Assembly (NCBI GenBank): GCA_036924285.1
Contig: JAYKYS010000010.1
Span: 2,604,001 to 2,668,000, forward strand
DNA: 64,000 nt
Direction: 5' to 3'
DNA from: Asterella californica
Lineage: Eukaryota; Streptophyta; Marchantiopsida; Marchantiales; Aytoniaceae
A model generated the notes under the pieces. That model searched no databases. It was not told the DNA's origin and worked only from the letters and a program-made list of their open reading frames with translations. A program made the translations under genes and the position numbers. Numbering within the stretch: the first letter of the stretch is position 1; every line of letters begins with the position of its first letter. Shown piece after piece: positions 14,668 to 49,364 of this stretch.

Positions 14668-14671
14668 CTGC

Positions 14672-15040: not shown

Positions 15041-16790
15041 CTACTCAGCTGCACGGTCAGGAAAACGATTCGTTCGATCAGAGCAAAAATACAACAACAG
15101 TCCAAGGCAGACAAAATCCAGTACGGTACCTTGCAGCGCTCGATCGGCCGTTGTTTCCCGTTGTAAAGCACTGCACAGCGGCATGAAATCAGGAAAAACT
15201 TCAACATCCTCGAACTGTGGGCACGGATGGGGAGGCGGGGAAGGGAGGTCCAACGATCGTTCCTCTTCTTCTGGTGTGACAGTGGTAAAGTAGCGCCGCC
15301 TTTCTTCACGCTTAGAGAAGAATATAGTGTCAATGTCAGCCATAGTTACTGTCATCGGATGGACGATTGCCTTCCAAAGCGCCTCGCTCCTGGCACGCTA
15401 TATGCCATTGCCCATTAACCATTTACATGAAGGTGCATACTTCTCCGAACGCACCATAGATCGTAAGCAAGTTTGGAGGGTACTGCCGAGAGGATGACGA
15501 CATCTGTACTTGTTATATTGTAAAGCACGCTGCAATATATTGTTAGAGTTTAACTCCACCCTATTTTTTGTGTCAGCAGCCCCCAAAAGACTGAATAACT
15601 CATCTCCATCGGCAAGCATACCTTCTGTAATATTCTTCATACAAAACCTGTGATGTTCCTCAGATTTATCCTTCATACAGTAGCCTATCATACCTACAAA
15701 AGTATGAAGGCCTCTGTTATTCAGCCTTTTGACACAGACTTCGGCTCCTAGTGGTCTAGTCGTCCCTTTCCAGCCTAGTAAAACAAGCAACCTGTTTTTA
15801 ACATCCACAGGGCTGGTTGCTTGTAAACACAAAACTCCCTGAACATGTAGATGAAATAAGGCCCCCCCTCTTTCGACAGATATTAAACCGCTATGGCATT
15901 CTTGATGCAAAAAGGCACACAAACAGCCCCAACAACAAAGGTCTAAATCACCCCCCGTTTGAGCAATAGTAACGGAGACCTCAAGGGTCTTCAACGGCAG
16001 CGATCTTCTGGATCGAGGAACTGACGGCTCGCTCGCACGTCTGGCGCGAGCGGCCTGTCTCATCTGCATCCGACGGGAAGAGGTAATGACGACAACCAAT
16101 CCTGTAAATTCTAGCGTTCACAGACTTGCAAACACAAGTCAAACACTGCTGCCTATAGACAGAGGTAACGACAGGTTTAAGAAGGCTGTGGTTCTGTTCG
16201 TCCTGAAGATACTTGGGATAACAGAAAATGGTGGACCTACTATCCTTCAACACCAGCCATAGCCCTTCCGATTTGATATACAGAAAAGGACCGATAATGC
16301 ACTGATAGCAGTTGAAAGCTCCCGAGAAAGCATATGACACTTTAACGTAATCTAAGCCTGGAAGAAGAAATTCCGGTGGTTTCAAACAGAACCGAAAATC
16401 AACATATACATATGTCGCGGTCGTGTACAAGATTGTCTCAGAGAAAGATAAATATCGGGAGGGCAGCAAAGGATAGGGGGGAGAAGTGGTGGGACAAGCG
16501 AACTGTAGGACTTGACACTTGTAACCTTCAGTACCATGAAGGCAAACAGGCTGAATGGAATCTAAGCAAGGAACAAGTACAGACGGAGACAGAGGGGCAT
16601 CTACAGAAGGGGAGGCAGGAGGCGGAGGAGAAACATCAATGGGCTGAGATACATGAAAAGGCTGCAGCTCGGGACTGGCTGGTACACAGAGAGGACTACG
16701 AGCAGGAGAAGCAGATACGACATCGAGGCTGTCAGAATCATCATCATCGGACAGAGTTACATCATTGTCAGCATTAACTTCGGTTGACAT
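15041..16790 (-). pseudogene. HUH-motif (Replitron-like) transposon protein, copy A
   Basis: The protein starts at the ATG at 16790 with an acidic Asp/Ser tract and a Pro-rich linker. The conserved body follows. A likely HUH motif (HLHVQGV, His codons at 15853-15845) and a YCMKD motif (Tyr codon 15682-15680) lie about 55 residues apart. That is the layout of single-tyrosine HUH endonucleases, which nick DNA and form a 5' phosphotyrosine link. Downstream is a conserved block (KNRVEL, then W, then VTMADIDTIFF) also seen in copies B and C. From memory, this set resembles proteins of Replitrons, helicase-less eukaryotic HUH transposons. Two lesions break the frame: a one-base insertion near 15970 compared with copy B, and a TAG at 15398-15400. 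The last stretch is acidic and ends at 15041. A host gene family is the alternative, but dispersed broken copies argue for a transposon. Confidence 0.65.
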
Positions 16791-17989
16791 CGTGGAGAAA
16801 GAAAGAGAAGTACCTGAAGGGTGCCCGTGGGAGGAGGCAAATAAATGAAAACAGCATGCATGGAAACTGGCAGAGCAGAGACATGTGGCCTTCGAAGGAT
16901 ATGTCCCCATCACTGTCCATGCCGCAACAATATGCCGAGACGGCAGTAGTTGAGAAAGAAGTGTTCGCTGTACGTCCGAAAACAATAACGATGACGCTGA
17001 CAGCTCCCGCATTGCTCCTGCAGAAAAAGCACAAGTCCGATACCAGTTCCATCCGTCGTGTTTTGTCATCATGCTCAAGTCGCGAGGGCAAGAAACAGAA
17101 GAAAAACGTGAGCAGAAAGACCGCAAAACTGCAGCCAGCAAGCGAAGAAGGAACCAAATGAAGAAAAAGGTCTGCACATAACCGTCCGGCAGCGAGAACT
17201 CGCCGAGAGTGTGATCACTGCTCCATCCTGCAGACAGATCAGTACATCGACGCCAGAAAGGCCACAAAAACGACAACCGAGACCAGTTCCATCTACAGCT
17301 CGTGCCGTCAGAAAAACAACAACTCGAACAGCACGTCCATCCCATCCTCCTCACGTCGCGACGGCAGGAAACGTCAGCACAAACACAGCAAAACCGCAGT
17401 CAGCAAACTCAGAAGGAACGAAATGAGGAAAAACGTGTGTACATAACCGTCCGGCACCGACAACTTCCCCAAAACGTAATGACTGCCCCATCCTGCAGAG
17501 AGACGACTACTTTGACGCCAGAAAGGCAGCAGCGGCTAACGAAAACAACGACACAGTGCGAGCAGTCCCCACGTCCAAGCAGGTGCGAATAGCAGAACCC
17601 GGCAAGCGAGCGGCCAAAGAAGCGAGGGTGAGAAGGACCCCATCGACGAAAGCAACAGAGCCACGCACAGAACCTCGAAGCGAGCAAGGAAACCTCCAGA
17701 CCATGTAGAGCACCATCAAAAGACACAGACGCCAAGGAGAAGAACCGAAAGAGCAAGAGACGAAAAGTTAAGGTTGGAAGAAAACAGCCTCCTAACGCCT
17801 CCTACACGAACCCCAAATAATATCGCCGTTGCCGAGAAAAAAGTGGTTTTCGACCGGGCGCAATTGCCGCCGACCATCTCGCGCCCATTTTCATCTCCGC
17901 CTTTAACAGCGGCTCCGCCAACAGTCTTCTTTTAAATTAACTTCCGCCGCTGAATATGAAGTCAAAACGGCAGTCCGCCGTTTAGAGTT
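16791..17989 (-). other. 5' leader region of HUH-family copy A
   Basis: Read on the minus strand, this is a strongly T/G-skewed leader ahead of the copy A start. It contains diverged tandem units of about 265 bp. Units are recognisable from GAACCAAATG at 17151 and GAACGAAATG at 17416, each followed by ACATAACCGTCCGGCA. The open frame that runs through it has a biased composition and is probably not translated. At 17954-17994 two 17-bp arms (two mismatches) form a hairpin that overlaps the 25-bp direct repeat, possibly the element terminus. Confidence 0.5.
16950..17600. repeat. Diverged tandem repeat of about 265 bp
   Basis: Two clear units and one partial unit share the blocks GACGCCAGAAAGGC, CATCCTGCAGA and ACATAACCGTCCGGCA at 265-bp spacing. 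The divergence is substantial, so the duplication is old. Confidence 0.65.
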
Positions 17990-18014
17990 CATATTTGACG
18001 AAGATTCAATAAAT
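17990..18014. repeat. 25-bp direct repeat, right copy
   Basis: Identical to 6819-6843. It overlaps the outer arm of the hairpin at 17954-17994 and ends in AATAAAT. Confidence 0.7.
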
Positions 18015-18948
18015 ACGTAATTTTAGAAGATTCACATTGTGTGGCTTCTTTAGTTTAGTCAGCAATCACATGCCACCAAAAGGACTTTGATTTATTTGGA
18101 GAGAATATTTTTGCGTTAAAATCTCCAACCTGGTGTATAATAATAATAGAATAAGGGCATGCATGAATTCTTATGTCCAATGGAAGTTCTTCCATTTTCT
18201 TTTTCTTTAGGAAGGGTGACAAGTACACCCAAGAGATCATTAAACAGGGAGAAAACGTACATAGCTCCAGCGGTTTGGCAGACTCACTTCCTTGTATATT
18301 ATATATATATTATATTAAACCCTTGCAAAATATGCAACGGTTTAATTTATCGCCAAATCTGTTGAGCATTTCATGGCATTTTATTTATTGGTTTTCTTTA
18401 TGTTTATTTGACACTTGTCCATACATAACATTTCTTACGAGACTCGATTCTTTTCAGTCTATCCGTGCAACATCTAGATACATTATACTATGTTCAGAAA
18501 TATTAAACATAGTATGTGGTATGAATCTCTATGTTTTCCTCTCTCTCATGTATAATAAAGTGTATACACAATATCCATTTGGGTCCACGAGACACATGAA
18601 AAACAAAATATTCCTCTTCTCAGCAGCCGTTCTTGACCTTTGTCGCCTTGCACGTCTGAACAAGAACCACAAGAACCACAAGTTGGATGCATGTTTTGAC
18701 CTGGCGTTGGATATTTTATTAAAGCAAGCCCAAGACGTCCGTACCAAGCAGCTTATCACACATATAAACCGCAGAGAAAATACTGAATAAAGAAGAGATT
18801 TTTTTCTTTTTTCTTGCTTATTATTATCCGGATGTCACACAACTAAAAAAAAGCTGCTAATAGTCCCTAAAGGTACGAAGTGCATACAAAATCTGTAGCA
18901 TCGTTTGAGCAGATTCGCATATGGGTTGTGTTGCATTGTTTGGCTTGG
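18015..18948. other. AT-rich stretch with one unassigned open frame
   Basis: The frame at 18173-18790 (+) stays open for 205 codons with no recognisable domain. It begins in AT-rich DNA with Phe/Ile-rich translation, and its first codon sits in no clear context. Toward its end the translation becomes more protein-like (KNHKNHKLDACFDLALDILL), so a remnant of an element is possible. I do not call it a gene. Confidence 0.35.
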
Positions 18949-19339
18949 TTTTTTACTTGAACATGCCCCTTTTCGTTAAAGTCTACTAGAACGGACCCTT
19001 AACTTCCTCTCGTTTCTTGAAAAGACCCCCGGCCAGTTTCCCAGTCAAGACGCGCTCAAATTCGTTCGCTTCAAGCGCATTACCCCCAGTTTGACACCTC
19101 GTATAGCATCCACCGTGGCTTGTATGTCGATCGGGGATGGACACATGCCTCCTACTTCCTTAAATGACCGTGACCTCCTATCTGGCAATGGGAGGTCACG
19201 GTCTTACAGATCGACCGAGGATTGACAGTCGAGCGAAAAATAAATACGAAATAGACCGAGGGCCTGTTCAAGAAACGAGGAGAAGTTTGGGGTCCGTTCC
19301 AGTAAACTTTAACGAAATGGGGCATGTTCAAGTAAAAAA
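18949..19339. mobile_element. 391-bp MITE with long terminal inverted repeats
   Basis: The two ends (18949-19034 and 19254-19339) are inverted repeats of about 86 bp with roughly ten mismatches, starting TTTTTTACTTGAACATGCCCC. In the middle, an almost perfect 13-14 bp hairpin (GACCGTGACCTCC and its complement) lies near 19168-19205. There is no coding capacity. A TA dinucleotide flanks the CTTGAACATG core on both sides, compatible with a TA-targeting DNA transposon, but it lies within the repeat and is not decisive. Confidence 0.8.
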
Positions 19340-20879
19340 TTGTGTTTAGCTTGAACTTTCCGAATGACTTCCTCTACGGAAAGCCAACAAAGAAAAGTTT
19401 GTTGTTGACCCTCAAGGAATCGCTGTTTTTGACCCTTGAAGAAGAACAGACATCGACACGTCCAACAAAGTTCTCAGTTAGGAAGTTGGAGTCTTCAATG
19501 CCATTGGATATTTACTTGGCTAAGTCACTTTAGCATTGAGTTTTCTTGATCATATCCATTACTTAGTGACTATTGCTGGGACACAATGCATGACAGTCAA
19601 CCGGTCACATATCTAACATGGATTCTGACGTGGAACTGAAAGTCGACATGGACTCGAGGTGAGAGTTTCTTGAGAACGACGGAACCTTCTGGCTGTGGTA
19701 TGACCGTGAAGACTGTATATGTCTACTCAAGGAAGCGTTGGACTTCTAGTTGTGGTTGCTAACTCAAAGAGGTAGACTTCAGGTTACAAGGTGGCACTGT
19801 AAAACACTCATACATGTCTCTTGGCTCCTCTGATATGTTCAAGAAACGAAAAATCAAGTTGAACTAGTAATGATAAGGTCAGACGGTGAACTTTGACACT
19901 CGGGAATACAAAATATGTGAACGTTTAGACTTCTAAACTTCTCCTACATGGAAAAGAGACCCCACTGAACACACACACGAAGTTTCAGCCTGGGATCAAA
20001 TTCTAGCACCGAGATGTGGACAGAAAAGTTCTGAGTAAGAAAATTACGGTAATTTCTAGTACCCAGATAGCTATTTCAACCTAGAACAGAGAATTGGCTC
20101 GATGATAAACCTAAGTTATGTACTTTGAACATCAAAGATAAGTGTGAATTCACTTGCATAAGCGTGTGAATGCTTGAATAAGATAAATAGCATACTATCA
20201 ACCTACTAGGACTCAAAACATGTAACACAACGGTGTTAACATATGCATAAAGGACTAGGAGTAATATTAAGTTAACTTCTACGGCTACTAACTCTCAAGT
20301 GTCGAAGTAGAAGCGTAACACGTAGTCGTGCCTGCTCACAACCTCCAGAATACACTTTTCTGACGTCTTAACTTCACTCAGAGAGATCAACTCCTGACAG
20401 AGAGGTGAATTATTCACTATGTGAAATGATTCACATCACGAACAAGTAGAAATGTAAGGTTACTTGTTCTCTTTTTCATGAACTCTCTTTGAACATGATA
20501 AAGCAAAGCGTTAGAACGTATCGTGCGAGAAGTTTTTCAAAATGAAGGAGAACTGGTACATTTTGAACATTGTGAGCTGTGAGAGACGAAACTCGAGTGA
20601 CAATCGCGTAACACAGACTTCAAGAATTGAGAAATAAAAACGTGCGAAGACCTTGAGGATGCTGATTTCTTTGAGTAGATTGTCGATCAATTGTACTTCT
20701 CGAGTGATCATTCGAGAGTGAATTTTCTGGATGAAAGTACCAAAAGGTCTCAAGATATGCAAATTACGTTCGAGTGATGGAGAACATACATGGATCAAAT
20801 TCTTGATCATGAGCATGATGTGAATGGCAAGACGTTGGACCATATGCAAGAATTAGCTGGTTGACTAAGGTTAGACGAG
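19340..20879. other. AT-rich region with possible transposase remnants
   Basis: No open gene. Short plus-strand translations near 19375-19560 look protein-like but are broken by stops. The region lies directly upstream of the MULE remnant and may be its decayed 5' half. Confidence 0.35.
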
Positions 20880-21800
20880 GAGTTTGAATGTATTGCACCC
20901 TCGAATGCATCAAAGGCGGTGGAAGGTATCATATCGAATGTATATGTCAGAACTGCAAACTATCGAGCATGCGAGAAAATGCAATACCTCACTGCAAGTG
21001 AGATAGTATCTCGTGATGATAGTGGAGGACTTTCGTCTAAGATGACGACACATCAATACCAGGAGAGTAAGAGCCCAACGAGGAAAAGACCGTGAGTGAA
21101 TTAAGGTTACAGTTTGCAATCTGTTGCACACTAATCTCTGTAACTTGACGGGTTGACGTGGATCAGCTGCAAATTCTATGTTTACTGGTACAATTTTGAG
21201 CAAATCGGGTTGTTGCAGACCCTAATGTTCGAGTACGGAGTCTTCAAGAGGAAATCTGAAACAATTACCAGAAGTGCATGTTTTACATGCCTATTTGGCA
21301 TGGGTGCGAGCATGCGTGGAGATGGATGCATGGAGAGCAAGGTGTCTCTTTCCACAACATACATGCATTATGCAGATGTATTTCCAACGTGGAGAGCATG
21401 ACCATTGTGGATTGACATGATTGGAGGACAATAACCTTCAAACTTTTTGTCGAGCTTTTATTGCATCCGGCGCTTGTAAGTTCATACTTCCGTTTTGTCA
21501 AAAGAACATTGCAATTGATGTGTGTCACAACAAGAATAAGAAGTTTCCCTGTCAGATTCTAATGACATCTGTGCTTGAGGAAGATAATAAGTCTATCATT
21601 TTAGCTTATGCAATGACTCTAGTCGAGAACTTAGAGACTTGGTGATGGTTTTATCAATTGTTACGAGAAATGATTGGGATTGGAATGAGCATCGAGACTG
21701 TTATAATATCGGATCGACAGAAGGGGTTGGAAGCTGTCCCTGCTAAGGTCTTTCCAAACATAGTTCATGGCACTGCACTTATTACTTGCAAATGAATGTT
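20880..21800 (+). pseudogene. Mutator-like (MULE) transposase remnant
   Basis: The segment 21421-21790 translates into the core of a MULE transposase. It carries the stretch with QILM and AYAM, then the ETW-stop-WF block, then ISDRQKGL followed by VFPN and H. In intact MULEs this block holds the second catalytic acid of the DDE nuclease. A TGA at 21643-21645 replaces the Trp codon expected before WF, and another stop follows at 21795. Upstream, from about 20880, a stretch reading IISNVYVRTANYRACEK resembles the region before the nuclease domain, with several frame breaks. The element is dead; no terminal inverted repeats were found. Confidence 0.75.
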
Positions 21801-25103: not shown

Positions 25104-25150
25104 TTCCAGTTCCCAACATGAAATCCAGGATTTCATGTTGGGAACTGGAA
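25104..25150. repeat. 47-bp perfect inverted repeat (23-bp arms, 1-nt loop)
   Basis: The arms TTCCAGTTCCCAACATGAAA.. and the complement are perfect over 23 bp, with a single base between them. It abuts a second hairpin at 25151. Confidence 0.95.
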
Positions 25151-25185: not shown

Positions 25186-25189
25186 GAAA

Positions 25190-27273
25190 AGATCCTCTTG
25201 TTATCCAACATGTCATGTCTAGAGTAGAGGTCCAATGTAAGCTATGGGATGATGCTTGGTATGATTTGTTTGACTAGATATATTTTGATCGAGACCTTGG
25301 AAAAGTATTTTGTAAGGTATGTCATGGTAAGAGTAAGTCACCTTTTGCTCTAGCTGGTGCTGTTAATGTCCGGGTCTCAGCCTTCCATGATCATGCGGGT
25401 ACAACATTGCATAGGACTTTGGCTTAGACTCAACACGAAGGAAAACAAGCTTTCAAGCAAGCTGTCGAAATAGCGAACAGGACTTGCGATCGAACTTTGA
25501 TTACTTTATTTTGTGTCGCATATTTTATAGATAGAGAATGTATTGCATTTTTTAAGTTTCAGTTCTTTGCAGAATGTGAAAATTGTCTCATCTTATATGA
25601 CTGAAAGTATCTATCAGATGACAAGGCGTGCATAGACATTATCACATTTTGCATTAACTTTGTTATGCAAAAACGTACACTTGTCTGAGTTCAGTGCAGT
25701 CGTTTTTTTGGTTCGATGTGTGATGAGACGACCGATATTGTTGTGCATGGTCATTTATCTTTGCAACCTTTTTGGAAGAAGGACATGTGGTAACAACCTT
25801 TCTCGGTCTTATTAGATTGTCTGAGAAGCATTATGAAGCAATTACAGAAACTCTTCTTGAACTACTGAAAGTGTGGGTTGGAACATGAAAAAATGATAAG
25901 TTTTGGTTCTGATGGAGCTTGAGTAATGACTGGTATATAGAACGGAGTTGCATTTCGAATGAAAGGTATTGTCAATCATTTCATACTCTCATTATGTAGT
26001 TCATCGTTCTAATTTAGCGCTTTTAAAGACCTCTAGACACATTTTGTGTGTGATCCTTAGTGAAGATATAGATGATTTGATAAATGCAGTAGCTCTTTAC
26101 TTTAAGAGATCTACTAAACAAAAGAAAGGGTTAGAAGCATTACAATCTAAATTTGCATATTCTCGTAAGTTCCTGAAGCATTATGATCGAACACGTTGGT
26201 TATATCGTCGGAGTGCGGTAACTAGTCTCTGTGACTCTTTGGAGTCTGTTTTGTATTTTCTCTCTGAAGTAGATCTCACTGAGGATCATGGAGTAGGTGC
26301 TCAGCTTTTCACAAAGCTTCATTTTTTCAAGATTGTCTATTGTTTGTTTTTTCTTGCAGATAATTTACAATCTTTGAGTGTGTTGTCGTGGATTTTTCAG
26401 CAGAATTTGTAGATGTTAGTACCATAGGTGCGTTGATTGCGAATGAAGTAGCTATCATCCGAATGCATTATATTGTCGATCTTAGTGTTAACTTCAATAC
26501 TTTCTTCATCAATGAAGATGTTGGATATCATCTTCTGTCGAATTATGATCCGGAAGGTGGCTTCTAGAAGCGTATGCATTCAGAGGTAAGAGGTAGTTTC
26601 TTTCATTCTGTTCAACTAGAGAGGGACCGGTTAGGAAGAGACTTGGAAAAGACGGTGAGTTTCCAGAAAATTTTCTCTGAGTCCATTTGTTCACAGCTAT
26701 TGGAGAGATTATCTAATAATGATCTAGTTGGAGCATTTAAGATTTTATCTCCTTCACAAATGTCATCTCAACTAGTTCCTTTACTTGATTGGGGGTCTAA
26801 GGAACTTCAACTTCTTTGTGCTCATTTTGGAACAGAAAAACATGTGAGAGGGGTCTTACGTGCCCCTTTTGTGCAACCAGTCTCTCTAAAGTTAGAGTTT
26901 CAACAGTTTAAAACTCACGCACATAATGAGTTTAGGTACTCCTCGTTTAGAGATCTGTGGACGATGATAAGTTTCAGTGATACTCTAAAATGTAAGTATC
27001 TATAACTATCTATCTTGGCTGTATTGCTCATGTTCAATGTGTGTTTATAGCACACTGTGAGAGGACATTGAGTATACAGAGTGTTATTAAGACAAAGTAC
27101 AGAAATTGTCTGCAGACAACAAACTTAGACAGTGTTATGCGTTTGAACCTAGAAGGACCTAAGGACTGCTTCAAAAATTTGCTATCAGATGCAGTGGAGA
27201 TCTGGAAAAGCACTGTCCACCACCGTCGCTTCGTAAATAACCCGCAGGTATACATGATTGATGCAGCGAACTA
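25190..27273 (+). pseudogene. hAT-superfamily transposase pseudogene
   Basis: Remnant of a hAT transposase of the type with an N-terminal zinc finger as in ZNF862/C17orf113-like proteins. The zinc-finger part reads FCKVCHGKSKSPFALAGAVN (about 25310-25370) followed by HDH..TLHR. The nuclease core starts near 25710 with SMCDETTDI, which holds the first catalytic Asp, and continues with SFGSDGA..MTG at about 25905. The helical part is partly open at 25969-26412 and 26574-27005. The C-terminal dimerisation region (ERTLSIQ..IKTKYRN) is at 27059-27130. Many stops and frameshifts occur, so it is dead. The order of blocks matches intact hAT proteins. Terminal repeats and the 8-bp duplication were not identified, although the double hairpin at 25104-25185 lies at its 5' edge. 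Confidence 0.85.
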
Positions 27274-29349: not shown

Positions 29350-30182
29350 CAAGCGGGATTTGCATTTGGAGGGCGTTAGGTTGAACTGTTGCTTCTTTTC
29401 TTTAACTGCCATTGGCTGAACGGGGCTTACTGCTACAAAATTTTATTTCCTCCTATCTGCCGCCGCTTGTTTCGACAGCTTCCAAACGTCTTTTTTCGCA
29501 GGATGAAGAAAGAAGATCGAGGGGTGAAGGACGGCGGGGCCGTGGTTTTGGGGGCATGCGTGTTTTCTCCGTGCTCGTTCTCCATGCTCCACCGTGGACG
29601 GCGGACGTCCTCGGGCTGCTGTTGTCCTGCTCGTTTTTCCTCTGCAGTCGTTGAGCTTTGGTGTTTCTGCTCTGCTGCTCGGGGTCTGCTGCAGGGAGTG
29701 TCGACTTCTTTCTATCGAATCCTTCAATTCTTTCGTCCAGGCTTTCGTGTTTCTGGTAGAGGATTGCTGTTCTGCTCGCCGATTCGTCGTTGCTGTTATT
29801 TTGCTGCTGTGATACATATCGATACTTCTGTGATACATTTCTCATTTGCTCGGTTCTCTTATCGAGAAAAATCGAGCAATCAAGAAATCTTTTGGTCCAG
29901 GTTTCGCATCATCAGCATGTTAGACCCAGAAATGCAGGCAGGCCCAGAAATCTTTTGGCCCAATCTGTCCATGCTTTCCCTGAGTATATGTCATTGTGCA
30001 GTGCATTACTTCGTGACATGACGGCCAGACGAGTGGAAGGTTAGTTTCCAGTCTGTTGTCTCCTTGTCTGTTTGCAGTTGGAAGTTTTTTGGTGTTGTCT
30101 CCTTCGCTGTTTTCTCACTGTTTGTTCGTTGTATAGGTGAAACAAGCAACGAGGGACCGTCGAGCACTTAGGAGAAGCTGAA
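29350..30182 (+). pseudogene. HUH-family fragment: leader joined to a C-terminal remnant
   Basis: The part at 29970-30042 translates as FPEYMSLCSALLRDMTARRVEG. It aligns with the C-terminal part of copy A, FPDFMPLCSALQRETTADRA, on the same relative strand. The stretch before it (about 29389-29900) has the T/G-rich character of the copy A leader, and the block GGAGGGCGTTAGG near 29370 resembles GGAGGCGTTAGG at the outer edge of the copy A leader. The conserved HUH body is missing. This is best read as an internally deleted member of the family, or as the end of a copy into which other DNA was inserted. The coding similarity stops at a GT in both copies, so an intron there is possible but unproven. 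The open frame at 29389-30021 is in a different phase and I do not call it a gene. Confidence 0.5.
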
Positions 30183-31756
30183 TGCAGAAGTAAAACATAG
30201 TTTCACAAGTAGCACAACGGCTACTTTCGCAGTGCACATATTAGACTACTGTAGTAGATAGTAGAATACCGTACTACCGTAACAAGTATTGTGCATAGTA
30301 CTTGTTACTTCCATAGTAGGCAGACGACAAGTTTTTTGTTGACGCTATGGTCTTAAGGCCATGTTGTCCATGTATTTCAACTTCTTTTATAATGAATAAA
30401 GTTTGGACGTACCACCGTTATCTTTTGTTTTGCAAAACCATGTTAACACCTTTGGAAGAAATCGGAGCATGAGAGATGAGGTCACAACACATCCTGAAGG
30501 AAAAAATACTCCATGCAGTTCAACTTAGAGATATACCACACGTTTCGAAGTGGCGGGCGGACCGAGCACGGCCGCATCGAAACGTCTTTTATCTCGGGTC
30601 TGCAAAGTGCAGGAAAAAAATGAAACATCTAGAATAGGAAAAACCAGAAGGAAAAAGAGTTTTAATAGCACCCCACACAATTCCAAGCTGAAGCGAAAAT
30701 AATCACTAATCCGTTCGACGCATTCCTTCAACACCCAGGCCGAAGTGAGGAGGTTAATATGCATCGAAAGGTCAGTTTTTGGTGGGAGGGGGGGAGGAAA
30801 GGCGACAACCTGGAAGGGCGCGGGTAAAAATTCCGCTCGTCGGTAGGACACGAGGGGTTTAGACCTAGCTTTTGTATATTCGAGCAAAGTGCGGAGTGGA
30901 AAATCTTCTCATGGACAGGGCGTGTGAGGGAACTGCAGTTCGCGTCATTTAGAGTTACCTGCTATATTATTTCATCTTCGCTTGGGATTCATTTCGTCCG
31001 CACGGAGGTCGCGTGTTTTTCTTTGTTCTGTGGTAGGACCCTGGTGGCTTGTCGATTTCGATCTGTGGCAAGGCCCTGTTGCCATAGATGGCTGTTTCGC
31101 GGACTGTTGTTTCATTTCAGGTCTGTCGTGGTGGTAGCTTTCGCTGTTGTTTTTTGCTCTCGTATCGCTAAACTGACATGTTTGGACGAGCGGCGGTTTG
31201 GCTAGTTCTACTGACGGTTTCTTTGTAGGGTGTGTCATTTTCATAGTTCTTCTCGTGACGGCAGTGGTGACTTATGCTGAATCAAGCGCGGTATCGTGCG
31301 GTCGTTTTTGTTTGCTTTCGGGCTTTGATTCTGCTTTTCGCTCCGGTTTTCTTCGTTCCTTGGTAATTCAGATCGCAACTTATCGACGGGAAGATGTCGG
31401 AGTTGTTTTTCATGTTATTCTTTTGTTGTCTGTTGGTAACTCACACCTTCGTTCTGACTGTGGACGACGAAGCTATCAGCGGGTATGTATCAGAGCTGTT
31501 TCTCACGTCACTGCAGCCGTGCTGGGAAAGACGACAGCAGACGGAGATGGTGATGCAGGGGGATTCAGGCTGACGGAGAACGGGATGATGAGCCACTTTC
31601 GCGTAGTCAGCATAGTGGTGTTGTTGTGGCAGGTTCCGGAGTCTATGTCCATACTTTCATCGAATTTAGATACGTTCACTGTACGTACTCGTTGGTATAT
31701 ATATTCTTCTCGTTTCCGTCCCGCTTCCACTCCATGATGAGATAGTTACTCCAGCC
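30183..31756 (+). other. Leader region of HUH-family copy B
   Basis: This region is T/G-rich on the plus strand, like the copy A leader, with several short open frames of biased composition. AATAAA at about 30395 may be the end signal of the preceding fragment. One copy of a 21-bp direct repeat lies at 30744-30764. No protein is supported here. Confidence 0.45.
30744..30764. repeat. 21-bp direct repeat flanking copy B, left
   Basis: AGTGAGGAGGTTAATATGCA plus T matches 33788-33808 in 20 of 21 positions. The pair brackets HUH-family copy B. Confidence 0.6.
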
Positions 31757-33212
31757 ATGTATTCGGATGATGAGCTGCTGCTTCTTGCTGCATCCTCAGA
31801 AAGAGAAAAGAGTTCAGACGGGTCACTACATTCTCACCCGTCGGCTGGCGTGGTAGATAGTTACTTACTAGAGACACTCTCCTTATTCCTGACAGTGCTC
31901 TCAGGTTTCCAGTAAACGTCCGATGATCGGTTTTAACGAGGGTGCTCTCCAGTTGATCCGTACTTACATTTACCTAGACCTGGCATATTCTTCGAGCACC
32001 GTCCAGTTCCTGCTCAAGTTTGATTGTGTTAAGATCACAAAAACCTGTTATCTCTGTCCTCTTCACGTTCTACCACTCGTCAATTTAGCTGGTCTGTACC
32101 GCTTCTTCTCTTATTCGGAGGACGGTTTATCACTGTATTTACAGGATAGGCGTTTCTGTATGTTTAGTTACCCTGCCTATTTTGTTCGAGAGGGTGGTAG
32201 TAAGCGTTCCACTGTGCATTGCATTTACAGGTTTCACCATTTATCGTGCATATTTACTGAGCTGGACCCCTCCAGTTTCCGCTTTATCTGCCGCCACCAT
32301 ACGGACTTGAGTCGACAATATGTCTCTACGGAAGCAAGCGAGAGCGAGGATCCCGACCCTGGAATTGTCAGTGACAGTGTGTCGACGGGAAGCGACCTTG
32401 ACCCTTCTCTCTTCCCGCTGCTTTCTACTTTCTTGCACAAACAGTGCGTCTCTAGAATGTTTTCTGTCGAGCGGGGTGGCAGTCTCCTGCATTTGCATTT
32501 CCAAGGCGTTATCTCCATCCATGGTAGATCCTGCCTCGAGGTGAAGAAGAAACTGTTGCAAGCACTTGCATGGGACCAACAGCGTCCGATTGGTGCAGAG
32601 TCTGCGTCAAACAGCTCTCAAACAAGGGGTTGCATACATTTGTGAGCATGATTAAGGACGATCAGCTGCAGCATCACCATGCCGTGATGAAAAACATCAC
32701 TGAGAGTATGGTGGCAGACGATAAGGAGTTGTTTATGTTCCTGGAGCTGCAGATATCAAAATCGTGTTGAGCTCAGTTACATGAATATTTTACCCAGGGC
32801 GCTCCAGTTTAACAGATACAAAAGCTCTCATCCGCTCTCCAATACTTTATCTCGCTGTCTTCGTCAGATGCTGCTGTCAGACAAATACTCACCTTCGCCT
32901 AGATGGATAATGCAGGTAGGAATACAGAAGAAACGCTCGGACTCCTTATGAAACTCATTTATCAGGTCAGAGCAGGTGATGCATATTTTCTTTCACATTG
33001 ACAATAGACGATGCTCACATTGCAGCCGCATGTACTTCGAGGCAGGGATAAACGACGAGGAGGGTGCTGTCGACAGTGAGGAGGACAGAGACGAGCAGCG
33101 AGATGCAGCCGGGAACAAAGACGCAGTAGTAGCGACCCAGAAGGACATCTGTCAGAGTTCATACCTCTCGCAGACGTCTTGCTTAGATGCAGGAATGAAC
33201 CATCGACGTTAA
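31757..33212 (+). pseudogene. HUH-motif (Replitron-like) transposon protein, copy B
   Basis: The likely start is the ATG at 31757 (MYSDDELLLL), an acidic N-terminus. A frame change near 31905 leads into the frame open from 31923. The conserved body matches copies A and C: YIYLDL, then CRHH, then FSVERGGSLLHLHFQGV with the HLH codons at 32490-32498. The segment that should carry the catalytic tyrosine reads TFVSMIKDD, so GYC(M/L) is missing through a 12-base in-frame deletion near 32653. Other lesions are a one-base deletion near 32601, another near 32755, and a TGA at 32949-32951 where copy C has TGG. The C-terminal part holds a CSHCSRMYFE stretch (about 33013-33042) that could be half of a zinc-binding site, then an acidic tail ending at 33212. 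Copy B cannot make an active protein. Confidence 0.65.
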
Positions 33213-33430
33213 CTAGCATCGGGCCTTTCTTGTTTGCAAACGAGGACAAGCAGCAGTCTACATCGTCTGCTTTGTACAGCGTACACATGTTATATAGCCG
33301 GATCTGAGTTAGCAGCAAACTGTCCGTATGTCTTGGCAGTGACGCTGGTGGGCCTTGTAGCAGAAGACGGTGGTGGATCTTGTAATTACCAGCACTATGT
33401 TTCCAGCTTTTGTCTTTAATCTATTACCTT

Positions 33431-33466
33431 CTACTTAGCAGCCCCACATATGCTGCTGCTAAGTAG
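33431..33466. repeat. 12-bp-arm hairpin downstream of copy B
   Basis: CTACTTAGCAGC and its exact complement flank a 12-nt loop, about 220 bp after the copy B stop. It could be the 3' hairpin of the element or a transcription-end structure. Confidence 0.6.
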
Positions 33467-33787
33467 CATCACGCTGTAAGTATGTTCTGTAGCAGCAGCA
33501 AAGTATTCAATGTTTTCTCCAGTTGTGAGTAAAGGTCCCGCTGTACGATCCACTGTGCGGTGAATAAATAAAATATCCACCGTGATTTGCAAATCGAATT
33601 ATTTATTTCGAATTTCGAACTATCGTGCAGCAATACCTTAGAGGACTCCACGTCGATTCAAAATGCTGTACGAAAGGTCCTCACGGAGCATCTATTGGTA
33701 CCGAACATTAAATAAAACTTTCACTTGAAAAATAATACACCCCCAAGCGAACGAAGTAAGCCTCAGTGAATAAACACTGCCAAATAT

Positions 33788-33808
33788 AGTGAGGAGGTTA
33801 ATAAGCAT
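33788..33808. repeat. 21-bp direct repeat flanking copy B, right
   Basis: Matches 30744-30764 in 20 of 21 positions. Confidence 0.6.
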
Positions 33809-40639: not shown

Positions 40640-41503
40640 CAATGCATCAGCCATCTTTTCCAGAACTCTAACCATGGCATCTGATCTATATTTGACTGCA
40701 GAGTGGTTAGCAATCTACTCTTCTTGTAGAAATTTGAGTTTCTTATCCTCAGAACTCACAAAACTCTCACTAAATTCTGACATGCAATCCACAATTGCTG
40801 TAGCACTACGAGACATGTCTTTCTTTCGTTTTACACCTGAATTCTGTCTAGGAAGTGCATCAGTTCCACTAAATCCACCTCCAGCGAGTTCTTCCTCGGT
40901 AGTTTGATCAGGAGGAGTTGATAGTTCGGGTCTGGATTCTCTCCCGGGTATGGATTCAGTCATACAGTCAAGGGTCATACTCGACCTTTGATCATAGAAA
41001 GATTCAAGACACTCAAAGCATGATTCGGGAAATTTGACTAGAAGTTTGTTTTGCTTTCCTCTCAGCTCTGCTCAGAGATTGGTATGGCTCATTCTCATAT
41101 CGAAAATTCCAATCTTTTACACGTTTGTAACCTCCCAAGGTGGACTCCCATTACCCACGAAGTTGAGAGATGTTGACAATGATACCTTCTCTCTCAATAT
41201 CTCATGTATGCATCTCCACTTTGTATCCGCAGACACCATATGCTCCCTACTGCTCTGCCCTTCTTCTACAGCAGCTTCCAATTTTTTGACCTCTAGAATA
41301 GCGAGCACTTGTCAATGATCCCAGGATGCTCTCGATCGAGTGGAAAGATTACATGGAGCCGGTGAAAGTGATTCCAACAGAACTACAACGGGTCTAGATC
41401 GAGGGGGTATACTACTATGAGGAAGAGATCGACCTGAGGTACTAGGAGTAGCACTCCGTTGTAGATTTCCGACCTTTCCAAATTCTTCATGAAGCACTTC
41501 CAT
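40640..41503 (-). pseudogene. Harbinger-associated Myb/SANT-like protein pseudogene
   Basis: Harbinger elements carry a second gene for a Myb/trihelix-like protein that binds DNA and helps the transposase. Here 41503-41312 gives an N-terminal tail ending SRASWDH. A TGA at 41314-41316 takes the place of the expected Trp, and the frame continues as QVLAILEVKKLEAAVEEGQS and SADTKWRCIHEIL. That is the first part of the Myb-like domain. The frame then breaks and resumes as 40978-40715, with an acidic linker followed by MSRSATAIVDCMSEFSESF and EDKKLKFLQEE, the typical C-terminal helix. Order and strand match the neighbouring transposase. Confidence 0.75.
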
Positions 41504-44500
41504 AGGGACAGCACCAGCCAGACTCTAGCCAAAAGAGAGAATTAACTGAAGGATGAATGTTGAGAACCGAAATGTGGCTGTGAGTCAAGCTGTACACTCC
41601 CAGGAACTTCACTACCCTCAATGCTTTCAAGACCATCGACTCCAATAAAATTATAGCACCTCTACGCATTTTCATCGTTTTTGCTCTAACAGCGAAAATC
41701 GGTACACCAAGATGGTAGCTGCACAGCAACAAGTAGAACTACCAGTCCGAGCACAAATTCAGATGAAGCTACTTGCACAAAAAGCACAGTGATAACTGGA
41801 GTAGCACACATGATATACATCGTCGATCGTAGGTCATTCATGAAGAAATTGAACTTCCCTCTCAGTCATTCCCTCGCTTCGTCTTGAACTCCCGCGTTCT
41901 CTCTCAATTTCGTAGTTTTGTCATGAAGTCTTCCGTCCTCAAGTCTTGGCTGCTAGTGCTCACTCTCGGCATCAATCTGGACCCGCAGCACACCCCGTAC
42001 TCCAAGAAGTGCTTGAGCGATACTCCTTACGCTGCACTTCGTGAAGGTCTGACAGTGTCTTATTTCTGGTCTTCAAACGATAACGTGAAGAGCTTGTAGT
42101 GTAGTGTGGTGACATTGTGTTTTTCCGAGCCTAGTCATCCGCGATAGACGCGTCGACTAACACTCTCGATGGGGTGGTGCGGACGAGCTCTAAACTCTTT
42201 GTTTAACTCCATCACGCGTCTTCGCACTTGCTCTAGTATTCTCATTACTCTCTGTAATATTTAGCACAAGCAGGGCATTAATGACGTACATTCATGACTG
42301 TGCGCTATGCCTGCTCGCATGTCCAACGCAACTTCTAACACCTGAACCAAGAGGAGGAGATTTTCTATAGAGACAAGGACCCTAATGACAGCGGTCTGCG
42401 ATCGCATTTACAGACTCGACAAGGACCCTAAGCAAGCGGCTTACGGCCGCACAGGAATAAAATTTGAACCAGAAATCTCCTTGTACTAATCAGGGATGTT
42501 ACGTAATACGTTACATCACATTGATGTCAAATTACATGTCAAACTTGTCTACGTATGAAACTGACATGAATCTCTACCCAGACACGCCTGCTCGGCTTAG
42601 CACGCGGTCGCCTTAAGTGCGGATTATGGGCTGTTTAACTTCTAAGCTCATTACTACATAAGAGAGGAGAAATATCGCTTAGGTTTTGCTGCAAGTCTTT
42701 TCAACGCTGAAATGGTTTGCTATGAGAATTACCTTCTGGATTAATTTTTTTGGGATGATCTTCGAGACGTAAGATATTTTAGTTAAAACTCCGCTCTTTG
42801 TAATCGCTGCTTTCCTTTCTCACGTTCGACGTTTTGGCTGTTGGGTTAGCCAGACTGCTCTACATCAGTTCACTCTGGCATCATTTCTGAGCGTTTCCTA
42901 ACGGTGGATTCTTCTCACTGGGTACTAAATTGAGAAAAATGTAACATTTTCTCACTGTGGAGTGAATGCAAGGGTCAGCAATATCACAGTTCTGACTGGA
43001 GTCTTCTCGAAAGAATATTTCCTCTAATGGCCTTTGTAGCAGGAAGGGGGTTAGTTAAGGGAAGCAAGGCGTGCAAGTTCTCTGAGGGGCATAGAGGTTC
43101 TGATTACAATTGCAGTTACAATTCTGGAGAACTTTCGTGCGTTGAATGTTAATGGAAAATGTATAAACGTTAAACGAATAATATAGAACAAGCTCAGGTC
43201 ATCAATCAAATATATCATGACTGTTATATGTTTAACTCAAGCGGGAGTTCAGAGAAAACCCATGAATGAAGCGATTGCCAACTGTATAGATGCGATTGCT
43301 TGACAAGTAAAAGGTTTGAGACTTAAATAATGATTTAACGGACAACGATTGGCACGGACAACGGCCACGCATTGTCATTATATTATTACACTGAAAAATA
43401 TTAGATGGTATTGCAAAATATAGAAAAATAAAGTGAAATTATAAACTAAATATCTATGAAAAACCAAAACGACAGCGAGAATTACAAAAAGAATCCATAA
43501 GTGAAGTGCTTGTAAACATGTCCTGAATAATGTTTTTCTCATAGAATGCACCGAGAACCCCGAATAACCCTCTACTACCACGAGAAAAACCACCATAAAA
43601 ACACAGAAGAATAAAATGCGCTCTAAAAACCTATATGAACTACTACATGTAGAGTTAAAACAGAAACAATATTAGATTGAAGATTTAGTTAAGTAATTAA
43701 TCAAGCATCAATGAGTTCTACAGCCTGCCTCATGACCATGGCCACGTGTGCCATAAAGAGGAGCTGATTCTCTCTCATCTCTAGCACACTTCATGAAGTT
43801 CATCGACGTTTCCATGTCTCTATAAACGATAACGCATATATGCCAACAAATGTGATCCCTGAGATTATCAGTGTTTTCTCAATCATACATGCAATAATTA
43901 TTTCTAGCTCTATGTGATAGTAAATGCTTTGAGCAGTTACGACACAACCGATAAAGTCCTCCCTTTTCACAACACTAAATTAAAAAGAAGAATCATAAAT
44001 ATTGATGATAAAAGTCTTTTGTCTTTTCCTTCATCTATCGTTGAGGTCAACTGGTGATAGACTCTCTATGGTATTCTGGATTCTACCATGGTGACACTAA
44101 AGTCCCTAAAGATATGATAAGGGATTAAAAGGAATCGAAGGAGCGACGAGACGATGAACAAATGGATGAAAAGACCCTATCAAGCCGTTCAAGGGGAAAG
44201 AGGGGCCCTAATGGCAAGCACGCAACACCCATAGGAGTATGATATGTAGGGGATAAAGGCTTCCGAAGTTCTCCACTCAACCGCCACCACAGTGACTGCA
44301 TACCCTCCGCGATGCCATTGCGTGTGCCGCCGCTTCACTCCATGAGAGTCACGTGGGACAGGTACTAAAGAACTTTTACCTTTTCTCCCGGTCAATAAAG
44401 TATACTATGAGACCCGAACCGGAGAAAAATGGCGGTGTGAAGCTGGCCTCAGTCCAAAGCGCTTAAATCAGGTTTCTTTTGTTATAAATGATAATTTGAT

Positions 44501-45689
44501 ATCATCGGCCTCAAACATTATATATAAATTTTGTGCTCATAGTTTAAGTTGAAAATCAGTGATTTCTGAATTTTCTTGTTTTCTTTATTTGATAAAAAAT
44601 TGGAACTTATTAAAAAAGGTTTTTTTCATTACATTTCCGTTTTACTCCGATAGTGAAAAGAACACAACGGAAATGAATGTATGTGAACAGTATTTCTAAT
44701 ATTTTATTCATTTATTCATTTATCTAGAATAAATTGGATTTTAATAGTAAAAAATGATCATAGAAAATTATTTTTGATATGAAGAGATACTAAAATTTAT
44801 ATAAAAATTGGGATAGAACTATATAACTTTCTTAAATTATACAATGGATTCCAAATAATTTCTGTGTGATACCAATATTATTAAATAAAGTCGCACACTC
44901 CCATAATCCACTTTCCTCTTTAAAAGATATATTCAAAGTATAAGAGTTTGCTTTTAGTATTTTTTAGTATTTAGAGTTTAGTATTTCAATATTTAGTTTA
45001 GTATCTAAAAAATATTTAAAAATTCCTTTAATAATATGACATCTTACACCAGGAAATCTTTGACCCTTCAACCTGTTACTCAAACAACTCAATGTGCTAA
45101 GACTTGAAAATTATGTCCAATCTCTGGAATATATGTAGTAATAGTTTTTTATGTAAGATATGTTTTGATTTTGAACATAAAGTTTGTGAATTATCATTTG
45201 TGAATTTTTGAAGAGCTTGATTCACATTTTAAAGTCGCTGGCACAAAAAGTGTCCGTACACAGTAATCGGGAAACTGAATCCATACAACTCTTGGTTAGT
45301 AATAGGTAACTCATGGGAAAATAATATGCATCCCGAAGGACCTACGAATCCAAGATGCAAAAGGAGACAAAAGTCCTACAAGAGAAAAATCTGCATTTTC
45401 ATATCATTGTATCTTCCATATATAATAAGTGTGATAAAAAATTAGATGTTTGAATATTGCGGAGATGCATGAGATGGTCTCTAGCACATGGGCTAGGGCT
45501 TCTCATATTTTATATTTTTTACCAACGAACCTACATAAAATATCAGATCTTTTTAATTCTTTTGAAACTTTTCTACCCAAATTTAATTTTTAGCTATTGT
45601 AATTAAAAACTGATTTGTCTATCAAACATAACTATACGTCATTGTGAATAATGAAAAAGAAAGAAGGAATGTTTTGTCGTGTAACAAAA
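41504..45689. other. Mostly AT-rich region without supported genes
   Basis: A 71-codon frame at 41884-42099 (+) starts at a non-ATG codon in the supplied reading and has no known motif. A 14-bp motif with GACAAGGACCCTAA is duplicated near 42362 and 42418. From 44460 to 45640 the DNA is very AT-rich and has no open frame of note. I see no gene. Confidence 0.5.
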
Positions 45690-47860
45690 CGGATGGAGTC
45701 GTCGTGAAAAGTAAAAGAAAATACCGACAACGGACAAAAAGATTGTTGTGAAAACTAGAAAAGAAAAAGAGAAAATAATTCTGAAAAACTGTTAACGCAT
45801 AGTCCGCAATTCCATAATCGCATGTGGAGCTATTTGTCTTTTTTGTGCTTTTGTCTTTTTTTCAAGAGGTATGCACTCCTCTCGAGTCCACTGTTCTTGA
45901 CTGGAATGATTCGCTACATAGACCAAGAGCTAATGTTTGTGGAAGAAGAGAAATAGCATAAGAGACAAGTAGGAAAAATCTCCACCGTGGGATACAAGAC
46001 GAGGATCACCAAACACAAGGCAGAAAAAGAAAGAACTCGAAACACTAGCTATGTCTAGCTAACTACGTAACCTTCTCAAGTAAGGAGGTCCTAGTCTCCA
46101 TGAGCGGAGTCACTGATGACCATCTCTCCTAATGGACGATGAAAACACCTCTACTCTCCTCTACAAAGCCTCCACTAACATCCTCTGCAATACTATACTG
46201 ATTTGCTACTGCAGATAAGTGACATATCATCCTAAAGGTATGGTAGTCCTCTTACAGTTCTCCATCTGCATACGTACCAACGAACTTAACAAGTGAGTAA
46301 ACTTCGGATGAAGACATCAGAAGGTCTCAATCACAAGAGAGAAAAATCTCACAGAAGCACCCCTATCTGAGTAGTCTCGGATGTTCCTCTCAGCCGCCAA
46401 AGAAGCTGCATATCCCGAAGTGTCTCTTGACAAGCATAAGAGTCGGCCATCGGATTCACAATAACCACATCCGTCACATATGCCACTCTCTATTCGTCGG
46501 CGTGAAGGATCTATGGAGGAGGAGGGAAAGAGACCTCTAAACTCCTTTTTCACATGAAGACTCACCTCTCTCATGAGAGAAAGTACAATATCTTGAATGG
46601 TGTCATGCTCCTCAATGATTATCCCTCCATGTGTACATAAAAAAAGATGCCCTCTGATAATATAGATAACATGATCACAACTACACGTTGAGGTACCTAT
46701 GATCAGAGGCTGAGGGAGAACGCATCGAACGCATCGCTATAATGTAAGCTAAAGGTGCGATGTGTAGTCGACGGGAGGAAGGCTTGGCAGAAAGCCAAGC
46801 ACTTGCACCTAGACCATTGCAAGAAAAAAGACGAGCGATAAATGATTTGAAAGTCCATTTGATTGGAGAGGAATAAGGACTAGATGCGAATAGAAACTAT
46901 GGTTGAGTGTCCTCTAGAGCGAAGGCATCTCATCTCTAGCAATGACATCAAAAGGAGACAAGAGAGACAGAATCAGAGTAGGTAATCATATGTACACTAA
47001 CGTAACATTGAAAAACATATAACATTGAAAAACATAGACATCAAGTATTCATATCTTAAGACCTTATATGTGGGTGGAGGAAGGACCCATCTCTTATATA
47101 CATAACTAACTCTCGCAATAGTGGAACATGATGTACGTTGAAATGTAGTGTCAAAGGTGGTACGACTAGCCCAACTGCCCAAGAATGTCAAAGGAATAGA
47201 GACCCTAGAGGCTAGGAGACCTACCCCACAATGCCTACAAGGTCAAGTAATCTAATTCTGATCAACTCTCCCTCTAGACAAAGAAAAGCTCCTGGTCCCA
47301 GAATATCTCCAAAAGTCGTCAACAAGCCTTGATCAAACCGCTCCAAACTATTGAGGAAAGTAGGAGTATGTGACACACATCTTTGCAGAAATGATGGTCT
47401 CTTTACAAAGCAAGAAGATAAAATGGAGAATATGATATGAGGGTCTTCAGTTGAGATAAGAGAGGAGCCAAACGACCCTGCTCTAGTAGATGCTCCTCTA
47501 AGAATGAGGATACAAACTTGGGTGAACCAAAAAAGGTGCCGAAGACTCTAATGTCATCATGATGAGTGAGAAAGCCCTCCAAGTGATGAAAGAAGAATCC
47601 AAACCAGAAGGAGATCAAGCTCGATATTTGGTCATCCTTATAGACAAACCAATGGTCAAAATCTCCTCACGAAGATACTTGAATACTTGTCTTACCAAAG
47701 AAACGGATCCCACAATATAAGTATCATCGTGTAAAGAAAGAATCAGACATCCTAGATGGAGACATCTTTTACAAGGTCTAAAATGAGATGTGGAGAACAA
47801 TGGACCTCTTAGAAGATCGCCTTGTCTAACAACTATCTCCTTGAATCTATGATGAGATGA
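45690..47860 (-). pseudogene. LINE-type retrotransposon with RT and endonuclease-like remnants
   Basis: Read on the minus strand from about 47860, the order is as follows. VRQGDLLRGPLFS is a reverse-transcriptase RQGDPL-type motif. LHDDTYIVG (about 47735-47708) is the active-site block with the two Asp residues. A GFLTHHDDIRVFGTFFGSPKF segment (about 47580-47530) is a common thumb-side signature in these elements. WASRTTFDTTFQ follows at about 47170. Then 46574-46317 carries DPSRRR and SGYAASLAAERNIRDYS ... VETF, which I read as the tail of a PD-(D/E)xK (restriction-like) endonuclease domain. The frame is broken by stops and frameshifts. Sequence from about 45690 to 47318 is repeated in inverted form at the right edge of the window. 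The RT assignment is good; the LINE clade is inferred. Confidence 0.7.
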
Positions 47861-48015
47861 TCACTTTTTCACTTTTTCTCCACCCGAAACAATGTCTGTA
47901 GATCATGATCTCGTCCTCCTCGCTATAGATTCCTTAGACGAAATAGACATAGAAGTCCAAGATCTTTTGCATGTCATAGACAAAGATGTTATCTCATAGA
48001 CTGCAAGCAATTGAA

Positions 48016-48076
48016 GGTCGTTGTTGACTAGTGACTTTGATCTCTCTTTATTCAAAGTCACTGGTCGACAACCACC
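48016..48076. repeat. Imperfect inverted repeat at the 5' edge of copy C
   Basis: Arms of about 24 bp (around GTTGACTAGTGACTTTGA and its complement, about three differences) surround an 11-nt loop, directly upstream of the HUH-family copy C reading frame. It may mark the element end or the junction with the LINE. Confidence 0.65.
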
Positions 48077-48079
48077 GTG

Positions 48080-49364
48080 ATATTACAAAACGAGACTGCT
48101 CCAAGATTCCTTTTCTACTCTAGCAAGTGTCCCGTGATCAGTTTCCATGATAATGTGCTCGAGCTGATCCGTAGTTTTATATACTTGGACCTACAATACT
48201 CAACAACCACCGTGAATTTCCTCTTGAAGTTTGACTATGTTAAGATGAGAAAAACTTGTCATCCTTACCCGTTGCACATGATCCTTATTGTCACTTTGGC
48301 TGAGTCCTACCGATTTTTTATTATTCCAACGACAAACTTGCACTCTATCTGCAAGACAGACCATTTTGGATGTTTAGTTACCCATCTTATTTTACTTGCA
48401 GAACTGATTCAAAGCGTTCACAGTGCATTGTGTTTACATAATTCCTATCCTACACACCGATTCGCTTGTCATCACCATAAAAATTTAGATCGACAATATA
48501 CCTCTATGGAGACAAGCGAGGGTCAGGAGACCGACTCTGGAGTTATCAGTGACTGTTTGCCGGACAGGAAGTGACCTGGACCCTTCTCTGTTCTTGCTGC
48601 TTTCTACTTTCCTCCACAAGCAGTGCTTGTCAAGGATGTTTTCTGTTGAGCGATGTGATAGTCTTTTGCATTTACACTTCCAAGGTGTTATATTCATCTA
48701 TGGAGAACCCTAAACCCTAAACCCTAAACCCATAACTCTAAACCCTATCTTCTGTGGAGATAAACAAAAAAATACTTCAAGCACTTGGATGGGATCAACA
48801 ACGACCGATAGGTACAGAAATGTGCGTGAAGTAACTCTCGAACAAAAGGCTGCACACATCTGTGGGCATGGTTGGTTATTGTTTAAAGGACGAGAAACTG
48901 CAACATCATCACGCCCTGACGAAGAACATCACTGAGAGCATGGTCGCAGACGGTAAGAAATTGTCCATGCTATTAGAAGCTACAGATACAAAAAACCGTG
49001 TAGAATTAACATATATGAATATTCTACCGAGAGCATTGTAATTCAACATGTACAAGAGTTCACAACCGCTGTCCAACACTTTGTCTCGGTACTTATGTCG
49101 AATACTTCTTTCAGAGAAGCACTCTGCTTCGTCCAAATGGATTATGCAAGCAAGAACAAAAAAAGACGGTCTGACTCCTTATGGAACTCCTTCATCAGAC
49201 CTCAACAGGTAACACTCGAGGACATCAATAACATTTTCTGCTACGTCTATAATAAACAGTGTCCACATTGCAACCATATGTACTTTGAAACAAGCAGAAA
49301 CGAAGAAGAGAAAAGAGCGGAGCCGAAGGAACGAAGCTCGGAAGAAGACATTGTCTCATGCTAG
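48080..49364 (+). pseudogene. HUH-motif (Replitron-like) transposon protein, copy C
   Basis: The body matches copies A and B: VLELIRSFIYLDLQYS near 48160, then FSVERCDSLLHLHFQGV with the HLH codons at 48669-48677. Then come VGMVGYCLKDEK with the Tyr codon at 48877-48879, TKNRVELTYMNILPRAL, and KKRRSDSLWNSFIRPQQVTL followed by a CPHCNHMYFE zinc-like stretch. It keeps both the HLH and the YCLKD motifs, so the original chemistry is best preserved here with copy A. Lesions include a frameshift near 48545, a telomeric-repeat insertion at 48706-48746, a TAA in the CVK-stop-LSN stretch at about 48831, another stop after RAL at 49040, and a frameshift near 49160. It lacks the N-terminal acidic part and starts close to the palindrome at 48016, so it is 5'-truncated. 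Confidence 0.65.
48706..48746. repeat. Interstitial plant-type telomeric repeats
   Basis: Three perfect CCCTAAA-type units and one degenerate unit interrupt the HUH-family copy C between IYGE and the VEINKKILQALGW region. The flanking copy C sequence is otherwise colinear with copy B. This looks like filler DNA added at a repaired double-strand break. Confidence 0.9.

Follow-up and report, generated by a model that had tools for sequence, protein, structure and literature searches.

Probable decayed copies of an abundant, helicase-less Replitron in a 64-kb segment of the Asterella californica genome

Three separate loci in a 64,000-nucleotide (nt) stretch of Asterella californica DNA (GenBank assembly GCA_036924285.1, contig JAYKYS010000010.1, positions 2,604,001 to 2,668,000 of the forward strand; hereafter the window) encode the same protein, and we conclude that these loci, here called copies A, B and C, are very likely decayed copies of a highly abundant Replitron without helicase, of which the enzyme, with its predicted HUH fold, would nick the end motif of the element and look-alike sites in the host. 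The family is of a known kind with variant features. Translation agreed with the original prediction for this window in that the motif blocks of one protein lie on the minus strand in A and on the plus strand in B and C, and tblastn with related proteins detected A (E 0), B (2e-39) and C (5e-49), together with a fourth piece (8e-9).

The nickase and its family

The HUH endonuclease of copy A (ORF2, for open reading frame 2; 15401..16069, minus strand), which begins with MQMRQAAR and runs for 223 amino acids (aa) to a premature stop, matched the Pfam family Replitron_HUH (PF21859) with 55.4 bits (E 1e-14; cut-off 28.5), supporting the predicted Replitron-type nature of the element, and the better-preserved genomic copies L036 and L047 gave 51.9 and 46.4 bits. 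Replitrons were reportedly named by Craig in 2023. The translation of A carries in order ERGGALFHLHVQGV, GYCMKD, KNRVEL, the W-containing CKWLMGNGI and VTMADIDTIFF; the stop falls right after GNGI, and the C-terminal part continues beyond it in the same frame of a three-frame translation (15041..15397, minus strand). The blocks proposed earlier were recovered in this way: KNRVEL, the W-containing block and VT..DI..IF are present in A and stand in the same order in C, and (G)YC(M/L)KD is found in A, with its Tyr 55 residues past the second His, and in C as GYCLKD. The corresponding block of B reads SMIKDD, so that this copy has lost the catalytic Tyr along with the Tyr-Cys pair.

Within an alignment of 15 proteins, Glu66, His75 and Gln77 were invariant, and Tyr130 and Lys133 were present in every row covering them. 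The count was widened by six more proteins to a total of 21, all of which keep His75 and Gln77; the first His of HLH is replaced in 6 of the 21. The E-R...HLH-x-QGV block is accordingly present in A, B (ERGGSLLHLHFQGV) and C (ERCDSLLHLHFQGV) as had been described, but its first His is not a conserved residue, and since only its second His and, at the next position but one, its Gln persist in all 21 proteins, motif II reads H-U-Q. The same form of motif II is found in the replication-associated proteins (Reps) of circular Rep-encoding single-stranded (CRESS) DNA viruses. An AlphaFold2 model of the HUH part of A, built from the 15-row alignment, reached a predicted local distance difference test (pLDDT) value of 82, and both the catalytic Tyr-x-x-Lys and the metal-binding motif, by which membership in the Replitrons was judged, were found in its predicted HUH fold. 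When this model was compared with solved structures by VIA-align, viral Reps ranked first, those of porcine circovirus 2 (PCV2) and duck circovirus at 10.2 each and that of the nanovirus faba bean necrotic yellows virus (FBNYV) at 8.9, followed by unrelated folds from 8.1 downward. In PHROGs the sole match was to an HNH family (E 0.13).

Several results weigh against the assignment. The proposed profile check of all three translations succeeded for A alone, as B remained at 17.9 bits (E 0.004) and the two C pieces, 48489-48710 and 48835-49038, at 12.9 and 23.7 bits (E 0.14 and 6.7e-5), all under the 28.5 cut-off, and two further frames of C matched no Replitron model in Pfam. The second Pfam model, Replitron_C (PF21860), scored 24.3-26.1 bits, with 24.9 and 26.1 bits in L036 and L047, just below its cut-off of 27. 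The structural check was likewise divided: VIA-align placed Reps first, but Foldseek found no match of the HUH model with E <0.001 (best, papillomavirus E1 at E 3e-3), and the predicted template modelling score (pTM) was a modest 0.64.

The original prediction of an element without helicase was maintained, for none of the 30 frames of at least 90 aa in L036 and L047, the two copies scanned, matched a helicase in Pfam; apart from the Replitron models these frames gave one weak match, to Transglut_core3 (E 0.03, under cut-off), and none to a superfamily 3 helicase (S3H) or a capsid protein. These results bear on two other origins. That an endogenous CRESS-DNA virus Rep was dispersed by integration rather than by transposition would be in line with the circovirus and nanovirus Reps as nearest solved folds and with the H-U-Q form of motif II, but we regard it as most improbable in view of the terminal motifs, the target duplications and the many dispersed copies, the Replitron profile match above cut-off, the lack of capsid and helicase matches in the frames scanned, and a sequence-profile search of solved chains that returned nothing at E 1. 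A remnant of a Helitron or Helentron after loss of its helicase comes to mind because Helitrons are HUH transposons of plants too. For the copies examined this origin is refuted, leaving it hardly any credence: the profile match is to Replitron_HUH and to no Helitron family, the scanned frames are free of helicase matches, and target duplications were observed, of which Helitrons make none according to review PMC10741241.

The abundance of the Replitron was assessed in the genome of 516.7 Mb (773 contigs). With the Replitron_HUH profile, the best 150 of 1,557 first-look candidates were scored and all 150 exceeded the cut-off, compared with 0 of 14 control genomes that matched. The core of A as query gave 3,487 candidates, the best 150 of which all scored E 3.7e-85 or better, and that of B 2,536, of which again the best 150 were scored; these three candidate lists overlap to some degree, and the overlap was not removed. 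The Replitron occupies well over a hundred scored genomic places, and the further copies that the original prediction had called for were thus found, including near-identical copies, several with both frames unbroken, from which sharp ends could be defined. The end motif GGTGAATAWGCA occurs 4,731 times genome-wide, as against 39 times for the reversed control pattern. Named protein relatives were found in the liverwort Riccia sorocarpa, in Coccomyxa and in Sphacelaria; algae, liverworts, mosses, lycophytes and ferns are host lineages of Replitrons.

A second reading frame overlapping the nickase gene

Upstream of the HUH frame lies a further open reading frame, ORF1, extending in the eight copies compared over 222-276 aa from the first likely ATG, and represented in copy A by 269 aa open throughout (15984..16790, minus strand), relative to which the ORF2 of A starts in the +1 frame. 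It is a conserved protein without Pfam match: neither the A frame nor its L036 homologue fell into a Pfam family, the ORF1 profile had no relative in the databases at 0.001, and its AlphaFold2 model (pLDDT 34) gave no usable fold. The ratio of nonsynonymous to synonymous substitution rates (dN/dS) among the eight copies was 0.13-0.46 for ORF1, obtained for 24 of 28 pairs; the HUH gene gave 0.04-0.20 in 13 of 28 pairs, the others being saturated. By these values both look protein-coding, and ORF1 is under purifying selection.

The arrangement of the two frames was analysed for 30 loci, 21 of which were counted after omission of L013, L014, L015, L020 and L028 (motif unrecognised) and of L019, L021, L027 and L029 (ORF1 unrecognised). 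Of these 21 copies, 18 have ORF2 in the +1 frame relative to ORF1; the exceptions are L005 and L031, with frame changes in ORF1 such as also occur in L034 and L048, plus L026. The worn copies B and C retain the +1 order, the start of C being ATA and not ATG. All eight copies compared carry an ATG at the ORF2 start, and in seven of them the ORF1 stop follows 89 nt downstream of this ATG; in the eighth, L051, the ORF1 stop precedes the ORF2 ATG by 1 nt and the two frames do not overlap.

How ORF2 is expressed was considered in three ways. If ORF1 and ORF2 were joined into one fusion by +1 ribosomal frameshifting within the overlap, the constant +1 relation in 18 of 21 copies as well as in B and C would be explained, the ORF1 end of L051 (CCT TTT TGA) would allow an easy +1 slip, and Riccia P0005, which resembles a single fused protein, would have a counterpart here; we consider this rather unlikely, as inspection by eye revealed no common slippery sequence among the copies compared, the ORF2 ATG stands at the same place in all eight, and L051 lacks the overlap. 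Somewhat more weight, but short of probability, is given to an incidental overlap, with ORF2 expressed from an internal promoter or through alternative splicing, or with a longer spliced protein whose N-terminal exon is ORF1. Between 8 and 16 ATGs, that of ORF1 itself included, precede the ORF2 start, making simple scanning to ORF2 unlikely, and the conserved part of ORF2 stops at a splice-donor-like AAG|GTA in seven of the eight copies (L051 was not resolved), which suggests that the gene is probably spliced; against this stand the lack of an acceptor AG conserved at the overlap across copies, as judged by eye, and of a conserved downstream exon after AAG|GTA in the comparison, which did not include L051. 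The third possibility, two separately made proteins, is favoured by the own ATG of ORF2 at the overlap.

Two observations speak against an ORF1 that is always separate. L070, a worn copy with the motif RYCMKD, reads through ORF1 and ORF2 in one frame, which we judge to be probably due to an indel. In Riccia P0005 an ORF1-like stretch upstream of the HUH part (hhalign probability 83%) and the HUH part itself seem to belong to one predicted protein, connected by what appears by eye as an AT-hook-like linker, unlike the separate ORF1 and ORF2 frames described here. The N-terminus of Riccia P0010 was only weakly similar to ORF1 (probability 5%).

Element ends and target duplications

Near-identical copies at different places share a common sequence up to sharp ends and diverge beyond. 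At their 5' ends the copies carry ATA(A/T/G)G and at their 3' ends usually GGTGAATA, in many cases with (A/T)GCA next to it; these represent the short direct terminal repeats (5-11 bp) by which Replitrons are recognised. Among 20 copies taken at 9 kb each, 17 have GGTGAATA in the 3' zone where it was expected, compared with 1 of 20 in each of two control zones. Long repeats at the ends of all copies were ruled out, repeats of at least 15 nt being confined to A and B.

Target duplications were searched for in 19 copies, comprising A, B and 17 of the 20 loci, with 3' anchors placed by eye and with the exclusion of L038 (no 3' end found) and of L039 and L051 (no 5' end found). A duplication of at least 7 nt at the 5' end, ranging from 7 to 23 nt, was found in 10 of the 19 copies as against 40 of 342 mismatched pairs, and one of at least 10 nt in 3 copies as against 1 of 342 (permutation p 5e-5 for the excess, the floor of the test). 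In eight of the ten the edge of the duplication coincides with the terminal ATA or falls a single base before it; in L040 and L043 the duplication halts just before ATA. Replitron target duplications measure 2-8 bp according to review PMC10741241; longer ones were observed in A (23 nt), B (16 nt), L033 (10 nt) and L032 (9 nt). In several copies a short additional stretch separates the 3' motif from the duplication; near-identical copies differ in this stretch, and we infer that it is captured donor flank.

The evidence from the ends also includes points against the proposed boundaries and duplications. GGTGAATA is missing from three of the 20 copies (L038, L047 and L049), and 9 of the 19 copies have no duplication of at least 7 nt, indicating either that duplication is not obligatory or that ends were misplaced; the 3' anchors had been set by eye. 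The duplication is not cleanly separable from the terminal repeat, and in L043 and L050 the repeat equals the terminal motif and may not derive from the target.

Under the preferred reading, the enzyme would covalently take the 5' end of the element with Tyr130, and host replication would copy the element as a single strand, a route suggested by the type of enzyme. From the duplications, a target-primed picture is proposed in which the host target would be cut at ATA, so that one duplication edge is fixed, and the second strand at a variable distance, so that the length varies; read-through beyond the 3' end would carry donor flank and explain the ragged 3' ends. ORF1 would be a partner protein, probably made separately. 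Taken together, we tentatively propose a possible two-protein class of Replitron, in which the unnamed partner ORF1 would overlap the nickase over 89 dual-coded nt, and insertion would be one-sided and target-primed, the cut of the nickase at a copy of its own motif fixing one edge and the other floating (7-23 nt), a process by which Replitron ends may have accumulated to several thousand in this genome. As there are near-identical copies, several with both frames unbroken, with clear ends and duplications, the mechanism of insertion is directly testable.

Other features were noted around the ends. Perfect hairpins with stems of 8-12 bp lie just outside the 5' end of L034, L036 and L050; these are 3 of 22 copies, compared with 11 of 457 control sites (p 0.02), too small a number for the hairpin to be accepted as a target rule. 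In L037 and L042 the 3' end is directly followed by its own inverted copy, which forms a long hairpin. Nearly the same host sequence, CTCTTCCGAACTTGGAA, precedes L034 and L052, members of two different Replitron families, which suggests that a common repeat served as target for both. Preferred landing of copies at 5' ends of other Replitrons, considered early on, was abandoned, since in most copies host flank could not be told from terminal repeat.

Copies in the window and comparison with known systems

All three window copies are damaged, B and C by frame changes and stops. Copy A had been placed at 15.0-16.8 kb but extends on the minus strand from 17995 to about 6877 (6877..17995), as an element of about 3,995 bp (17995-14668 plus 7543-6877) split by a nested retrotransposon; the related copy L032 aligns by blastn at 17995-14669 and 7544-6877, the main pieces with 93% and 76% identity. 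Its 23-nt target duplication lies at 17992..18014 (5' copy, terminal ATA included) and 6821..6843 (3' copy), and its 3' terminal motif GGTGAATAAGCA at 6873..6900 in two copies 16 nt apart, all on the minus strand. The nested element, separate from the Replitron, is a Gypsy-type long terminal repeat (LTR) retrotransposon (7544..14667, minus strand) with RVT_1, RNase H and integrase-type domains and LTRs (7544-8489 and 13722-14667) 99.7% identical over 946 bp; it is young, has TGTAAC...GTTACA termini and is flanked by CTGC.

Copy B, previously set at 31.8-33.2 kb, was found to occupy 30744..33808 on the plus strand between direct repeats of 21 nt with one mismatch (30744-30764 and 33788-33808), which are identical over the 16 nt that reach to the shared ATA and are spaced by 3,044 bp (about 3.04 kb), and a terminal inverted repeat of at least 16 nt was not detected in it. 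Its open frame (31893..32645, plus strand), the one with 17.9 bits to PF21859, joins a decayed ORF1 part to a shifted-in HUH part. The coding remains of C (48125..49364, plus strand; covered by tblastn with relatives at 48134-49334) hold an ORF1 part, the HUH part and the C-terminal block in several frames; an exact GGTGAATATGCA at 50535..50546 on the plus strand is an unproven candidate for its 3' end. The fourth fragment, at 29679..30110 on the plus strand, encodes the end of the HUH protein (AFPEYMSLCSALLRDMTARRVEG). The original prediction had recognised the coding loci; it gave neither the true ends nor the second conserved gene, and it missed both the nested retrotransposon and this fragment. 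Elsewhere in the window, a telomere-like CCCTAAA short repeat stands at 48706-48740 within the HUH reading of C, two genes of the Na/Ca-exchanger type (4562-6040 and 51715-53244) share one orientation and are separated by about 46 kb, and 25963-26409 gave a weak HEPN_Apea match (20 bits, cut-off 24.4).

Among known systems, Helitrons are likewise HUH-based transposons but differ in having a helicase and, according to PMC10741241, in inserting between A and T without target duplication. The Rep endonuclease domains of circoviruses and nanoviruses (PDB 6wdz, 7kii and 6h8o) share 11-16% identity with the window family, which differs from them by its transposon setting and its lack of a helicase domain. 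Closer are the HUH domains of the Riccia sorocarpa Replitron proteins P0002, P0005 and P0010 (R1sor_022762, R1sor_001337 and R1sor_005242), 33-42% identical and annotated as 'hypothetical protein', a warning that such reading frames may be called host genes of unknown function. Like Replitrons, as represented by the Pfam models and in review PMC10741241, the family has an HUH endonuclease with Tyr-x-x-Lys and no helicase, is about 3-4.5 kb in size, and shows target duplications as well as short direct terminal repeats. Within the scope of these sources it is distinguished by duplications of up to 23 nt as against 2-8 bp, by several thousand end motifs per genome, and by the second conserved ORF overlapping in +1, which points to a second protein matching no Pfam model here.

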